NCBI RefSeq assembly: GCF_002355635.1 | Contig: NZ_AP017558.1 | Coordinates: 2,294,001-2,358,000, forward strand | Direction of reading: 5' to 3' | DNA from: Halopenitus persicus | Lineage (GTDB): Archaea > Halobacteriota > Halobacteria > Halobacteriales > Haloferacaceae | DNA length: 64,000 nucleotides | Part shown: one piece after another, positions 9,875 through 57,656 of the stretch | Layout: each line of letters starts with the position of its first letter | Position numbering within the stretch: the first letter of the stretch is position 1 | Notes under the pieces: generated by a model | What the model saw: the letters and a program-made list of their open reading frames with translations, nothing else | The model's database searches: none | What the model was told of the DNA's origin: nothing | Translations under genes and position numbers: made by a program

Positions 9875-9885
9875 CCGTTCGTCGC

Positions 9886-9987
9886 GGGAGCGCCGCTCGC
9901 CGCGGGCACCTCCTGTGACGGGAGCGCCGCTCGCCGCGGGCACCTCCTGTGACGGGAGCGCCGCTCGCCGCGGGCACCTCCTGTGAC
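9886..9987. repeat. 34-bp tandem repeat, three perfect copies
   Basis: Copies start at 9886, 9920 and 9954; the unit begins GGGAGCGCCGCTCGCCGCGG. It lies 12 bp after the MFS stop codon, between convergent genes. The unit can form a GC-rich hairpin (GCGCCG...), so it may act in termination, but no T-run follows. Confidence 0.9.
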
Positions 9988-10008
9988 GGCCCCGCCGACC
10001 GCGACCGC

Positions 10009-30723: not shown

Positions 30724-31401
30724 ATGACCGACCGATCCGACGCATATCGCGACCTCTCACAGCCCATCGAGGCCGGCATGCCGACTTTTCCCGGCGACCC
30801 GCCGGTCGAACTCGCGCCGACCGCGACGATCGACGCGGACGGGGCGGCCGTCCACGAGCTCCACTGTGGCAGCCACACCGGCACCCACATCGACGCGCCG
30901 AGCCACACCGAACCCGGCGGGCAGGACCTCGACGATCGCCCGATCGGCGAGTACGTCTTCGACGCCCGGTTCCTCGACGTCACGCCCTGTACGGATCGCG
31001 GCGAAATCGGGGTCGACGCCCTTCCGGGTCACGCCGCCCTCGACGACGCCGATATCCTCGTGGTCCGAACCGGCTGGGACGCCCACTGGAACGACGATCG
31101 CTACCGCGACCATCCCTACCTGTCGTCGTCGGCAGCGCGGCGGCTCCGGGAGGCCGGGTGCGGCGTCGCGGTCGATGCGCTCAATCCGGACCCAACGTCC
31201 TCCGAGAACGCCGATGCGGACGAGCCGGAGGGCCTACCGGTCCACCACGCGCTCCTCGGCGCCGATCTCCCGATCCTCGAGAACCTCACGAACCTGTCGG
31301 GGCTCCCCGACAGGTTCACCCTGTACGCGTTCCCGCTTCCGCTGAGAGAGTGCGACGGCGCACCCGTGCGTGCGGTCGCGTTCGTGGACCGGGCACCGTA
31401 G
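30724..31401 (+). CDS. Cyclase family protein (kynurenine formamidase-like)
   Basis: 225 residues. The family metal motif HTGTHIDAPSH is at 51-61, with DLSQPIEAGMPTFPGDPP at the start and ILVVRTGWDAHW in the middle. The family (PF04199) includes kynurenine formamidase and several metal-dependent hydrolases. It follows the symporter by 85 bp on the same strand and may act on the imported compound. Its TAG stop is the first part of a 23-bp tandem array. Confidence 0.82.
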   Translation: MTDRSDAYRDLSQPIEAGMPTFPGDPPVELAPTATIDADGAAVHELHCGSHTGTHIDAPSHTEPGGQDLDDRPIGEYVFDARFLDVTPCTDRGEIGVDALPGHAALDDADILVVRTGWDAHWNDDRYRDHPYLSSSAARRLREAGCGVAVDALNPDPTSSENADADEPEGLPVHHALLGADLPILENLTNLSGLPDRFTLYAFPLPLRECDGAPVRAVAFVDRAP

Positions 31402-31579
31402 GCTGATCGTCGAACGTCCCGTAGGCCGATCGTCGAACGTCCCGTAGGCCGATCGTCGAACGTCCCGTAGGCCGATCGTCGAACGTCCCGTAGGCCGATC
31501 GTCGAACGTCCCGTAGGCCGATCGTCGAACGTCCCGTAGGCCGATCGTCGAACGTCCCGTAGGCCGATCGTCGAACGTC
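31396..31579. repeat. 23-bp tandem repeat, eight copies, starting in the cyclase stop codon
   Basis: Copies begin every 23 bp from 31396 to 31557. The unit starts CCGTAGGCCGATCGTCGAAC. The first copy overlaps the last two codons of the cyclase (CCG TAG) and differs by one base (CTGATCG for CCGATCG); the other seven are identical. The extremely uniform copies indicate recent expansion. Confidence 0.95.
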
Positions 31580-31644
31580 CGCGTCACGGGATCGTACGGT
31601 ACCCTCGGATCTCTCCCGTAGCGACGTCATCCTGACGAACGGTA

Positions 31645-38260: not shown

Positions 38261-38320
38261 CGACTCGGTTCCGGAATGATCGACTCGGTTCCGGAATGAT
38301 CGGCTCAGTTCCGGAATGAC
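38261..38320. repeat. 20-bp tandem repeat, three copies
   Basis: Units of exactly 20 bp at 38261, 38281 and 38301 (CGACTCGGTTCCGGAATGAT; the third copy differs at three positions), between the start of ahcY and the stop of the regulator gene. Confidence 0.92.
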
Positions 38321-49318: not shown

Positions 49319-49433
49319 CGGTCCTATAACCGTATCTCGGACCATCCGATCGCAGCGGTTCCGACCGGGAAAGCGGCTCACCGTCAACTGATGGCGTAGT
49401 TCAATACCGAACCGGCAACGTCTAGGCCATGTG

Positions 49434-49442
49434 ATTATAAAC
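49434..49442 (+). promoter_or_regulatory. TATA-like box upstream of the Bat-like gene
   Basis: ATTATAAAC. Transcription would begin near 49465, giving a leader of about 110 nt that contains all five copies of the 20-bp repeat, including four mini-ORFs. Confidence 0.5.
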
Positions 49443-49492
49443 CCCATCCAACCGAGTTCGACTCCCGGAACCGACCGGGTCACACACAATTC

Positions 49493-49590
49493 ATGACAGC
49501 GACCACCGAATTATGACGGCGACCACCGAACTATGACGGCGACCACCGAACCATGACGGCGACCACCGAACCATGACGGCGACCACGGCA
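49493..49590 (+). repeat. 20-bp tandem repeat, five copies, each with an ATG
   Basis: Units start at 49493, 49513, 49533, 49553 and 49573, consensus ATGACGGCGACCACCGAACC. The fifth is the start of the Bat-like gene. Each of the first four encodes MTATTEL or MTATTEP plus TGA, with the stop overlapping the next ATG (ATGA). Confidence 0.97.
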
Positions 49591-52491
49591 TCCCTCGAGT
49601 CGGCCCGCGTGGTCGTCGTCGCCGCCGCGGCGCTCGACGGGTACGCCAACGCGCTCGCGGCGGCGGGCGCGGACGTGCGCAGACCGGATACCGCGGCTGC
49701 AGCGCTCGAGACCGTCCGGTCGGAGCCGGTCGACTGTCTCGTCAGCGGGGTCGACCTTCCGGACGCGACGGCGGTCGACCTCCTCGCGAACGTCCGGGAC
49801 GAATCGCCGACGCTGCCCGTAATCGTCGCTGCCGCCGACGGCGACGAGACGGTCGCGAGCGAGCTGATCGGCGCCGGCGTCACGGACTACCTCGCGCTCC
49901 CCGAGTCGATGGAGGGATCCGTCGAACCGGGCGAAGCCGCCGTCGAGGAACTGCTGGACCGCACCGAACGCGCCATCTCGACGGCCCGGCGGACCGAGAC
50001 GCGCCGCGAGCGGGCCCGGCGGTTCGACGCTGTTTTCGAAGACACGCGTACCGCGACGTGGGTGCTTGACGCCGACGGAACCCTCCAGCGCGCCAACCGA
50101 ACCGCGCGGGACCTGATCGACGCCGACGCCGGGCCCCTCGTCGGCGAGCCGTTCTGGACGCTTCCCTGGTGGTCGGCCGCCGAGGGGACGATGGCCGACG
50201 TCCGGCGGCTCGTCGAGACCGCCCGCGAGGGGTCGTTCGGCAACGCGGTCGTCTCGCGGTCGGCGTCGCTCGAGGACCCGGCGGTCATCGACCTGTCGAT
50301 CCGGCCCGTCCGGAACGACCGCGGAACCGTCACCTCGATCGTCGTCGAGGGCGTCGACGTCACCGACCGCGTCGCGCTCGAGCGTGACCTCCGCCGGTCC
50401 GAGGAGCTCCACCGCGTCACGCTCAACAACATGACCGACACCGTCCTCATCACCGACGAGGCGGGCGAGTACACCTACGTCTGCCCGAACGTCCACTTCA
50501 TCTTCGGGTACACCGCCGCGGAGATCGAGGATCTGGGGACGATCGACGACCTCCTCGGCGCGGACCTCTTCGACCGCGAGGAGCTGGCCGAGACGGGCGT
50601 CCTGAAGAACATCGAGTGCACCGCCACCGACAAGGCGGGCCGGGAGCACACCCTGTTGGTCAACGTCCGCGAGGTCGATATCCAGGGCGGAACGCTGCTG
50701 TACAGCTGTCGGGACGTCACGAAGCGGAAGCAGCGCGAGGAGGCGCTGGCGACCCTGCAGGAGACCGCACGCGATTTCCTCTACGCGGAGACCCACGAGG
50801 AGATCGCGAGCCACGTCGTCGACGACACGACGGGCGTGCTCGACCTGGACGCGAGCGCGGTCTACCTCTTCGACGCCGACGCCACCGAGCTCCGGCCGGC
50901 CGCGCGCTCGGCCCGGATGCGGGCGGTGCACGGACCCCTTCCGGCCGTCGGCGCCGACGGGACGACGCTGGTCGGCCACAGCTTCGTCGCTGACGAGCCC
51001 CTGTTCGTCGACGACGTCCACGACGACGACCGGCTCGCGAACCGGGCGACCGACCTCCGCAGCGTCGCCTACATCCCCCTCGGCGACCACGGCGTCTTTA
51101 TGGCCGGGTCCACGGCGGTCGGCGCCTTCGACGACGTCACGCGGGAGCTTGCGGACCTGCTCGCCGCGACCGCCGAGGCGGCGCTCGACCGCGTGTCCCG
51201 CGAATCCCGGCTCCGCGAGCAGGACCGCACGCTCCAGCGCCGCAACGAGGAGCTGACCGATCTGAACCGGGTCAACGAGACGATCCGGGCGATCGACCGC
51301 GCGGTCGTCCGGGCGGAGACGGGCGAGGAGATCGACCACTCGGTCTGTGAACTCCTCAGCGCCGACGACCGGTTCCGGTTCGCGTGGATCGGCACGGTCG
51401 ACCGACGGACCGGGACCGTCGAGCCCCGGGCGTGGGCGGGGGAGGAACACGGCTACCTCGACGCGCGACCGTTCACGGTCGGCGCCGCGGACGGCGACCC
51501 GACCGGACGGACGGCGGCGACCGGGGAGACGACGGTCGTCGAGAACGTCGCCGACGGACTTCGCGATGAAGCGTGGCGCACGGAGGCCCTCTCCAGGGAG
51601 TACCTCTCGGCGGTGAGCATCCCGCTCGTGTACAACGACCTCTCGCACGGGGTGCTCACGGTCTACGCGGCGACCCGTGACGCCTTCGACGACACGACCC
51701 GGGCGGTCCTCGACGAGCTCGGGGAGACGATCGCCGCCGGACTCAGCGCCAACGAGCGCAAGAAGGCCCTGCTCACGACCTCGATGACCCGCGTCGAGTT
51801 CGCGGTCGACGACCCGACGTTCGTCCTCTCGCGGCTCGCCCGCCGGGCCGACTGCACGATCGCCTACCACGGCGGCGTTCGACAGACCGACGAGGGGCGG
51901 TACGTGTTCGTCACCGTCGAGGACGCGCCGATCGACGCGGTCGCGGAGGCGGCCGCCGGCCTGGTCGCGATCGACGAAGTTCGGCGGATCAGCGCGAACG
52001 GATCGAGCGGCGGTGACGGCGCTCCCGGGGACGGCGACGGCGGCGTGTTGCGGCTCCGGCTCACCCGGCCCTTCCTCGCGCTGGAACTCGCCGACCACGG
52101 CGCCGTCTTCCGGGAGGCGACCGCCGATCCCGACGGGGCGACGCTCGTCGTCGAGGTCCCGGACGGGATCGACCTCCGGAAGGTCACCGAGCTCGTCCGC
52201 GAGGCCTTCTCCGACGTCGAGCTCCGGTCGAAGCGGACCCTGGATCGGGCGCCCGACCACGACCGGTCCGCGCGGGTCCTCGCGGACGTGACCGACCGCC
52301 AGCTGGAAGTCGTCCGGACGGCCTACTACAGCGGCTTCTTCGAGTCGCCACGGGAGCACACCGGCGAGGAGGTCGCGGAAACGCTGGACATCTCCCCGCC
52401 CGCGTTCTACCGGCACGTCCGGACGGTCCAGCGGAAGGTGTTCGGCGCGCTCTTCGAGGACGGGGGCGTACCGCTCGCCGTCCGGGAGTGA
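49573..52491 (+). CDS. Bat-like multi-sensor transcriptional regulator (receiver-like, PAS, GAF, HTH-10)
   Basis: 972 residues. In order: receiver-like domain (about 10-115), PAS (about 150-255, WVLDADGTLQRANRTARDL), PAS (about 275-385, VLITDEAGEYTYVCPN), GAF (about 400-545), GAF (about 575-725), bacterio-opsin-activator domain (about 730-900), and HTH-10 (about 905-960, TDRQLEVVRTAYYSGFFESP and SPPAFYRHVRTVQRKVF). The receiver-like part has VDCLVSGVDLPD where the phosphoacceptor Asp is expected. It probably integrates redox or light signals and controls transcription. Targets unknown. Confidence 0.85.
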   Translation: MTATTASLESARVVVVAAAALDGYANALAAAGADVRRPDTAAAALETVRSEPVDCLVSGVDLPDATAVDLLANVRDESPTLPVIVAAADGDETVASELIGAGVTDYLALPESMEGSVEPGEAAVEELLDRTERAISTARRTETRRERARRFDAVFEDTRTATWVLDADGTLQRANRTARDLIDADAGPLVGEPFWTLPWWSAAEGTMADVRRLVETAREGSFGNAVVSRSASLEDPAVIDLSIRPVRNDRGTVTSIVVEGVDVTDRVALERDLRRSEELHRVTLNNMTDTVLITDEAGEYTYVCPNVHFIFGYTAAEIEDLGTIDDLLGADLFDREELAETGVLKNIECTATDKAGREHTLLVNVREVDIQGGTLLYSCRDVTKRKQREEALATLQETARDFLYAETHEEIASHVVDDTTGVLDLDASAVYLFDADATELRPAARSARMRAVHGPLPAVGADGTTLVGHSFVADEPLFVDDVHDDDRLANRATDLRSVAYIPLGDHGVFMAGSTAVGAFDDVTRELADLLAATAEAALDRVSRESRLREQDRTLQRRNEELTDLNRVNETIRAIDRAVVRAETGEEIDHSVCELLSADDRFRFAWIGTVDRRTGTVEPRAWAGEEHGYLDARPFTVGAADGDPTGRTAATGETTVVENVADGLRDEAWRTEALSREYLSAVSIPLVYNDLSHGVLTVYAATRDAFDDTTRAVLDELGETIAAGLSANERKKALLTTSMTRVEFAVDDPTFVLSRLARRADCTIAYHGGVRQTDEGRYVFVTVEDAPIDAVAEAAAGLVAIDEVRRISANGSSGGDGAPGDGDGGVLRLRLTRPFLALELADHGAVFREATADPDGATLVVEVPDGIDLRKVTELVREAFSDVELRSKRTLDRAPDHDRSARVLADVTDRQLEVVRTAYYSGFFESPREHTGEEVAETLDISPPAFYRHVRTVQRKVFGALFEDGGVPLAVRE

Positions 52492-54293: not shown

Positions 54294-54953
54294 ATGACCG
54301 ACCGGACCATTCGATCGAAGTGGGAGGAGCGGTTCCGCGAGGAGTCGTACCCCACGGACCCCGATCCCTCCCCGGTGTTGCGTCGATATCTGTCCGCGGC
54401 GCCCGACGGCCGGGCGCTCGACGTCGCCACCGGAACCGGTCGCAACGCGCTCGCCCTCGCCGAGTCGGGATACACCGTCGACGCGGTCGATCTGGCGCGG
54501 GCCGGCCTCGAGACCGCCCGCGCGAACGCGGTCGACCGGGGCGTCGACGACCGGATCAACTGGGTACAGGCCGACCTCTCGACGTACGGGCTTCCGGCCG
54601 AGCGGTACGCGCTGGTCACGGTGAGCTTTTTCCGGTGTCTCGACCGCTTCGCGGACCTGACCGAGGCGATCGCCCCGGGCGGCTACCTCTTCGTCGAACA
54701 CCACCTGCGGTCGACCGATCCGACCCCGGGCGGCTCGAGCGATCCGCGCTACCGGCTGGCCGCGAACGAGCTGCTCCGGGCGTCCCTCGGGTTGACGATC
54801 CTGCAGTACGACGAGGGGAGAGAGCACCCGCCGGACGGACAATCACGGGCGACCGCCCGGGTGGTCGCGCGGAAGTCGACCGGCTCGCGGCAGTCGTATC
54901 CGCCACGGGACACCGGGCTCGACGAGGAACCCGAGGAAGGAGACGACCGATGA
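54294..54953 (+). CDS. Class I SAM-dependent methyltransferase
   Basis: 219 residues from ATG 54294 (MTDRTIRSKWEERFREE). SAM-binding motif ALDVATGTGRNALALAESG (about 42-60), motif II VDAVDLARAGLETAR and WVQADLSTYGLP. The TehB/SAM-methyltransferase-25-like fold suggests a small-molecule substrate. The frame is open to a GTG at 54153, adding a repetitive STDTTEVSR segment; I regard that as non-native. The ATGA at its end starts a chain of mini-ORFs. Confidence 0.8.
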   Translation: MTDRTIRSKWEERFREESYPTDPDPSPVLRRYLSAAPDGRALDVATGTGRNALALAESGYTVDAVDLARAGLETARANAVDRGVDDRINWVQADLSTYGLPAERYALVTVSFFRCLDRFADLTEAIAPGGYLFVEHHLRSTDPTPGGSSDPRYRLAANELLRASLGLTILQYDEGREHPPDGQSRATARVVARKSTGSRQSYPPRDTGLDEEPEEGDDR

Positions 54954-55067
54954 ACGCGACGCCCGACCGATGAACGCGACGCCCGACCGATGAGACCAAC
55001 CGGCGAACACGTTCCCCCGAGACGGTATCGGCGGCGACAACGAACGCCGGATCGATACCTCCCGTGA
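54950..55067 (+). other. Chain of three mini-ORFs bridging two genes
   Basis: Starting in the methyltransferase stop (ATGA), there are 54950-54973 and 54970-54993, both encoding MNATPDR and stop (20-bp repeat), then 54990-55067 encoding 25 residues (MRPTGEHVPPRRYRRRQRTP, then DRYLP). Each start overlaps the previous stop by 4 bp, and the last stop overlaps the GTG of the next gene (GTGA). Confidence 0.75.
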
Positions 55068-56667: not shown

Positions 56668-57656
56668 CAGTCCGCGCTCCGCGGGCGGTTCGACGCCGCT
56701 CCGCCGTCGTTCGCGAGGGCGGCCGCGTCCATCGGCCGGTCGCTTCGGCGCTGCCCGCGTCGCAGCCACGCGTGCGCGCCGGCCAGCGTCGCCCACAGCA
56801 GAAGCTGTCCGAAGACGGTCATCCCGACGAGACCGGTCGAGAGGGTCGCGGGGAGCGCGCTCCCGGCCGAAGCCGTCGGCGCGAGGGACGCCGCGACGAC
56901 CAGGAGTCCGAACGGCGCCAGCGCGCCGAGCGCAGCAAGCGCCGTCGATCGGCCGCCGCCCGCGTCGTCAGCAGCTCCGTCGTCGGGGCGCAGCCGCGCG
57001 AAGGCCCACAGCGCGAGCAGGCCGCAGACCGCACCCAGAACCATCATCCCGCCGTAGAGCTCGAGGCGCGTCGCGACCGGGAGGGCCGACTCGGCGCCCG
57101 GCGGCCGTGGCGGCAGGACGAGCCAGGGCGCCCCCGAGACGGCGATGAACCCGAGCCCGGCCAGGACGGCCTGGCGAAGTCCCGATCCCGGCGCGCCCGG
57201 AAGCAGCGGTTCCAGGAGGTAGAACCCGGCGCCGAAGACCACGGCTCCCAGGAGCACCCCCCAGAGCACGCTCGAGGCGACGCTCACGGCGGTCGTGACC
57301 GTTCCGGAGACCGCAGTGTCGTGGGCGTGGCTACCGGCATCGGCGTGAGAGTGGCCGCCACCATCCTCGGCGTGGCTACCGGCATCGGCGTGAGAGTGGC
57401 CGCCACCATCCTCGGCGTGGCCACCATCGTCTCCGTGAGCATGGCCGTCGTCCTCGGCGTGAGCGTGGTCGCCATCGTCCTCGGCGTGATCGGTCGCCGT
57501 CGCGTCCGCGCCAGCCGTCTCGATCGCGGCGTCGCCGTGGCCGAGTTCGTCGGCGAACGCGACCGTCGGCGCGGCGACGATCGCGACGAAGAGCCCGAAG
57601 ACGAGTCCGGCGACGGCGCCCGCCTTCACGCCGCGGACGAGGTACTCGGCGAGCAT
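56667..57656 (-). CDS. cbtA: CbtA-type cobalt transporter subunit
   Basis: 329 residues with five or more hydrophobic segments (CbtA). The start MLAEYLVRGVKAGAVAGLVF is typical of the family. A long loop after the first helix (about 55-112) is a His/Asp/Glu/Gly-rich repeat (GGGHSHADAGSHAED, duplicated as 45-bp DNA repeats) that should bind metal. It lies 2 bp after cbtB. Together the two are predicted to take up cobalt for the cobalamin pathway. Confidence 0.87.
   Translation of the reverse strand: MLAEYLVRGVKAGAVAGLVFGLFVAIVAAPTVAFADELGHGDAAIETAGADATATDHAEDDGDHAHAEDDGHAHGDDGGHAEDGGGHSHADAGSHAEDGGGHSHADAGSHAHDTAVSGTVTTAVSVASSVLWGVLLGAVVFGAGFYLLEPLLPGAPGSGLRQAVLAGLGFIAVSGAPWLVLPPRPPGAESALPVATRLELYGGMMVLGAVCGLLALWAFARLRPDDGAADDAGGGRSTALAALGALAPFGLLVVAASLAPTASAGSALPATLSTGLVGMTVFGQLLLWATLAGAHAWLRRGQRRSDRPMDAAALANDGGAASNRPRSAD

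Follow-up and report, generated by a model that had tools for sequence, protein, structure and literature searches.

Tandem duplication of an ATGA start codon as the probable source of a mini-ORF chain before a Bat-type regulator in Halopenitus persicus

Four near-identical mini-ORFs precede the gene for a Bat-type sensor/regulator in Halopenitus persicus, each of them closing inside the start of the next. The closest match for this arrangement is most likely the known termination-reinitiation at ATGA overlaps, here produced by tandem duplication and filtered by phase, and we put the probability that the array combines these three elements (duplication, hand-on of ribosomes at ATGA and a reading-frame phase filter) at roughly two in three.

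Results

Direct reading of the window (the whole stretch of DNA that was analysed, 64,000 nucleotides) places ATGs at 49493, 49513, 49533, 49553 and 49573, exactly 20 bp apart and in frames 2, 1, 0, 2 and 1, with five 20-bp units spanning 49493-49592 and each opening with ATGA. At all four mini-ORF junctions, the TGA of one ORF shares its ATGA with the ATG that follows (4-nt overlap). The locus comprises the following features.

49435..49441, + strand: TATA box TTATAAA, inferred promoter, identical in congener G002
49493..49586, + strand: 20-bp tandem array, 4.7 copies, 95% match, score 160 (TRF)
49493..49516, + strand: mini-ORF 1, MTATTEL and stop, TGA overlapping ATG 49513
49513..49536, + strand: mini-ORF 2, MTATTEL and stop, TGA overlapping ATG 49533
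49533..49556, + strand: mini-ORF 3, MTATTEP and stop, TGA overlapping ATG 49553
49553..49576, + strand: mini-ORF 4, MTATTEP and stop, TGA overlapping ATG 49573
49573..52491, + strand: 972-aa Bat-type sensor/regulator, with Pfam receiver-like, PAS, GAF, BAT and HTH_10 domains

The initial annotation of this locus had listed four 8-codon ORFs (7 sense codons plus TGA; MTATTEL twice and MTATTEP twice), exact 20-bp spacing, passage through all three frames and ATGA stop/start overlaps, and each of these is present on direct reading; the last ATG (49573) does open a 972-residue ORF, for which the label of Bat-like regulator is right in view of the Pfam domains. The TRF score of the array is far above chance. 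Units 3 and 4 are identical and the units overall are near-identical; that they are not all identical argues against an assembly artefact. The units hold no TATA-like sequence, the Shine-Dalgarno motifs GGAG, GAGG and AGGT are absent from 49431-49640 (units included), and a genome pattern search for the 20-bp unit elsewhere returned only weak matches with 3 mismatches. The ATGA overlap in the chain follows automatically from a 3n+2 period together with an A after ATG, so that the chain is a matter of arithmetic for which special design is not needed; this arithmetic holds unless the first ORF meets an earlier stop before the next ATG.

Pfam identifies the products of the neighbouring genes as an amidase and a Glu/Leu/Phe/Val dehydrogenase. 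Two other genomes of the genus encode orthologs of the regulator with 85-91% identity, and many across the family encode orthologs with 57-72%. In a comparison of one genome per species, the congeners G001 and G002 have one start and no uORF at the corresponding place, G002 with a nearly identical leader in which TTATAAA lies 63 nt from the lone ATG, vs. the 58 nt that separate box and first ATG at this locus. This single start behind the TATA box in the congeners indicates that the array is a lineage-specific expansion, and, with the first ATG at about the ancestral position, the extra units probably lie downstream of it and within the expected transcript. Transcription is predicted to start at ~49462-49468, 5' of all five ATGs. 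The earlier proposal that the leader would contain all of the mini-ORFs is backed indirectly, by a conserved TATA box and a conserved spacing that put them in the predicted transcript. Stretches of DNA are often duplicated locally in tandem in this genome: a 464-kb sample holds 85 tandem arrays with identities of 90% or more, or one every 5.5 kb or so, mostly with periods of 12-45 bp (the genome was sampled as 400 kb in stretches plus pattern searches). Young arrays in the window include those at 31396-31580, 9885-9989 and 57324-57425, and coding (3n) and non-coding periods are both represented.

A second chain is found in the same window.

54944..54993, + strand: second 20-bp ATGA array, CGACCGATGAACGCGACGCC, 2.5 copies (TRF)
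54950..55067, + strand: second chain, from a methyltransferase to a 418-aa ORF, with ATGA/GTGA stop-start overlaps

Here the methyltransferase stop lies in the ATGA at 54950 and is followed by two copies of MNATPDR plus stop and then by a 25-aa ORF, the TGA of which lies within the GTGA at 55064 that opens the ORF of a 418-aa membrane protein. A homolog of this membrane protein (36% identity) in another haloarchaeal family has an ATGA chain upstream in two species (loci L380 and L381), with 23-bp units, 8-aa mini-ORFs and a unit order that differs between the species. A third period-20 ATGA array (38261-38319) lies past the 3' end of an ORF on the reverse strand and belongs to the non-start class.

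For the phase survey across haloarchaea, three ATGAs at fixed periods of 19, 20, 22 and 23 were searched for in 170 genomes of the family, and periods 22 and 23 were searched again in a 392-genome sample of the order, giving two periods per class (20 and 23 for 3n+2; 19 and 22 for 3n+1). Matches were kept as tandem when their units were at least 65-70% identical, and start calls were heuristic, relying on a codon log-odds model trained on this genome and on manual inspection. Variable-gap ATGA searches revealed many periods but were too noisy to be used alone. Gene starts showed a strong bias to the 3n+2 class, as evidenced by: 1) the codon-model score, by which 22/49 of the 3n+2 arrays vs. 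1/23 of the 3n+1 arrays ended at a coding-like ORF start (p = 4e-4); 2) inspection of N-termini, after which ~21/49 vs. 0/23 ended at a true gene start (Fisher p = 6e-5); 3) an automatic rule that steps through overlapping stops and starts, beginning at the first ATG, until it reaches a long coding ORF, with 27/50 vs. 1/23 (p = 2.4e-5); these counts ignore kinship between loci, L380 and L381 being orthologous. Diverged copies that still share ATGA were not counted as evidence, because ATGA is a requirement of the search itself. Two 3n+1 start candidates were rejected on finding that their Pfam domains begin at residue 34, which puts the true start downstream of the array. L254 and L324 (3n+2) and L299 and L295 (3n+1) had seemed to be start arrays by ORF length, and were dropped from the strict count with true starts further downstream.

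Pfam domains were present in 15 of the 20 scanned start genes of 3n+2 arrays, comprising UbiD, siroheme-synthase-type NAD-binding, CDC48-like AAA, sodium:solute symporter, DUF424, NurA, transglutaminase, UDG, solute-binding protein, FolD, TruB, class-V aminotransferase, ETF (EtfB-like), MFS and FAA hydrolase. About half of the start arrays open where an upstream gene has its stop codon, which means that mini-ORFs have been inserted between two coupled genes. From locus to locus the mini-ORF peptides are unrelated, which makes a function of the peptide as such improbable.

At the level of the class, the strong 3n+2 bias suggests that ribosomes initiate within the arrays and that termination-reinitiation delivers them to the gene, since phase would not matter if the upstream ATGs were unused; in 3n+1 arrays, each mini-ORF leads to the next copy but one, and some ribosomes would thus run through the start of the gene. 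An untranslated, neutral minisatellite, with ribosome entry only at the last ATG or transcription from inside the array and with a chain that is coincidental, would be in keeping with the abundance of tandem arrays and with the automatic ATGA overlaps of period 20. Nevertheless, this explanation predicts no phase bias at gene starts, and the conserved TATA box together with units that are free of TATA-like sequence predicts a start 5' of the array, making it an unlikely one. The phase bias is a property of the array class and not of the regulator locus singly; by extension from this class, the data support coupling of the mini-ORFs to the regulator, which the initial annotation had put forward and which gains indirect backing from the near-confinement of start arrays to 3n+2 and from the Haloferax volcanii literature.

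As a control, ATGB (period 20, at least 4 copies) yielded about a dozen arrays, and at no true gene start did any of them form a clean chain. Start arrays made up 5/8 of the ATGA set vs. 0/11 of the ATGB set (p = 0.005), a comparison of small numbers that is supporting only and that is weakened if the irregular ATGB array L409 is scored as a start array. Two other ATGB arrays, L407 and L410, were rejected as start arrays, their true starts likely being ~35 codons downstream.

Arrays with the same spacing also occur in other settings. Many of the family's genomes have conserved, 20-bp-spaced TCGAAATGA repeats in head-to-head arrangement with an orc1/cdc6-like gene.

L270, ~1996-2130: TCGAAATGA array with orc1/cdc6-like neighbour; similar in L206-L232

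These are probably replication-origin repeats, and the orc1/cdc6-linked array was left out of the phase test for this reason. Its adjacency to orc1/cdc6, along with a period of 20 bp that approximates two helical turns, could be taken to mean that the units before the regulator gene serve as operators or iterons, with the Bat protein as one candidate for the regulator that binds them. We consider this very improbable because the regulator array has no adjacent orc1/cdc6, its motif is not dispersed in the genome (the weak matches with 3 mismatches aside), and binding sites would not give a phase bias at gene starts; replication-origin or operator repeats were accordingly rejected for this locus. 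Five ATGAs at 20-nt spacing were also looked for in bacterial and archaeal genomes, as a qualitative scan only, with no 3n+1 counterpart. Among the matches listed, the bacterial contigs L142, L120, L129, L110 and L097 have five or six ATGAs leading into a coding ORF, with a HemL-like gene after the chain in L142 (Marisediminicola senii) and a ThiE-like gene in L120 (gene names judged by eye). Many Sporosarcina genomes (L087, L099, L123 and others) carry 20-nt-spaced ATGA arrays that recur at 100-bp intervals.

Discussion

We surmise that ~20 bp spanning the start codon of the Bat-type regulator were duplicated in tandem, duplications of 15-30 bp being common in this genome. With a period of 20 (3x6+2) and an A after each ATG, every extra start gives a 7-codon ORF ending in the next ATGA, and a ribosome starting at any upstream copy would end with the next ATG in reinitiation position. 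Published Haloferax data and the phase bias suggest that ribosomes could then be passed along the chain to the regulator's own ATG. Selection would act mainly as a phase filter, in which 3n+2 start arrays are kept as the gene stays translated, whereas 3n+1 start arrays would divert ribosomes and then be lost. With four links added, the regulator might be made in somewhat smaller amounts, in unchanged amounts or, if every copy acts as an entry site, in larger ones.

Ribosomes may enter at the first ATG, at every ATG or mostly at the last one. According to published work, 5'-UTR initiation in H. volcanii involves no scanning from the 5' end, and entry may therefore be at the last ATG, with the mini-ORFs little used. 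The lack of Shine-Dalgarno motifs at the junctions is not disqualifying, because the contribution of this motif to reinitiation has been published to differ from gene to gene and is not required. Haloarchaeal 5'-UTR initiation that is SD-independent and non-scanning would also allow internal ATGs of equal context to serve, and, given that the units are near-identical, one may speculate that each copy, with the same -12 to +8 context, is an independent entry point and that coupling funnels all of the ribosomes to the gene, thereby raising expression. The ribosome footprint is ~25-30 nt, however, and initiating ribosomes 20 nt apart would collide, rendering this scheme quite unlikely.

The initial annotation had also suggested that the chain could meter ribosomes onto the regulator and that copy number could tune its expression, neither of which draws support from the present results. 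Tuning is possible, but the mixed target genes rather suggest tolerance, and an identical architecture before unrelated housekeeping genes fits a generic mutation filtered by phase. In the adaptive form of the idea, unit number would set regulator output, with a fixed fraction of ribosomes per link, as a selected and graded contingency locus. That the target gene is a regulator, that the identical copies 3 and 4 fit a recent change in copy number, and that coupling survives any copy number, so that gain or loss of units would shift output gradually and not on/off, are all compatible with this idea; we nonetheless find it doubtful, since arrays of this type also stand before FolD, TruB, EtfB-like and UbiD genes, as a generic mutational process predicts, and since the congeners are single-copy in a comparison limited to one genome per species. 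Doubtful, too, is the broader proposal that 3n+2 start arrays are a recurrent, self-assembling and mutation-adjustable rheostat in haloarchaea and scattered bacteria. If true, output would be altered by gain or loss of coupled mini-ORFs with the reading frame never broken.

Under the favored reading of tandem duplication, ATGA hand-on and phase filtering, start arrays represent natural experiments on termination-reinitiation, with 2 to 6 near-identical coupled ORFs placed before real genes, and give a direct route to per-step reinitiation efficiency. That 3n+1 arrays are almost missing from gene starts speaks, on comparative grounds, for translation of ORFs of 7 to 8 codons in haloarchaea and for the passing on of their ribosomes. 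Duplicating a start codon in tandem usually does damage, but the A so frequently found after ATG can make it harmless. Mini-ORF chains are likely overlooked by annotation pipelines geared to long ORFs alone.

In the subset of open-access literature searched, coupled starts duplicated in tandem were not described, which is weak evidence. Bacterial tandem-repeat contingency loci and VNTRs are classically coding repeats that shift the frame on or off. Similar to these loci, the number of repeats at the 5' end of the gene could change by slippage or recombination; unlike the classical contingency repeats, the regulator is readable at every copy number. An on/off phase-variable repeat was thus rejected, given that the units are closed 7-codon ORFs and that the regulator gene begins at the last ATG, its own, however many units there are.

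The array shares with termination-reinitiation in H. volcanii and E. coli the ATGA (-4 nt) overlap, coupling in those systems needing an overlap or a very short distance, and with the H. volcanii work also the haloarchaeal host group. In H. volcanii, 9/9 tested gene pairs that overlap or are closely spaced were strictly coupled (Huber et al. 2019, PMC6728339), coupling was lost at a distance of 22-23 nt (Huber et al. 2023, PMC10666635), and in E. coli the final 15 nt of the upstream gene are enough for coupling (PMC10666635). This strict coupling in H. volcanii (PMC6728339, PMC10666635) upholds the premise of the initial annotation that ATGA overlaps couple translation in archaea. The H. volcanii and E. 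coli cases concern full-length genes, whereas serial, near-identical 7-codon ORFs here precede a single gene. As in prokaryotic leader uORFs (e.g., the iraD uORF, PMC5574718), a short leader ORF appears coupled to the main ORF; in contrast to leader-peptide uORFs, the array has no conserved peptide and several identical uORFs in series, and the orthologs have no uORF. A regulatory leader peptide or attenuator uORF was ruled against on this basis, with G001 and G002 devoid of a uORF and the peptides of other chains unrelated. Lastly, the coding sequences of prokaryotes, archaea included, are enriched for A at the fourth site (Abrahams and Hurst 2017, PMC5850271), and the ATGA start holds an out-of-frame TGA in that case as it does here; while the TGA in that study was linked to the catching of frameshifts, in the present array it is the stop of a mini-ORF following a 3n+2 duplication of the start.
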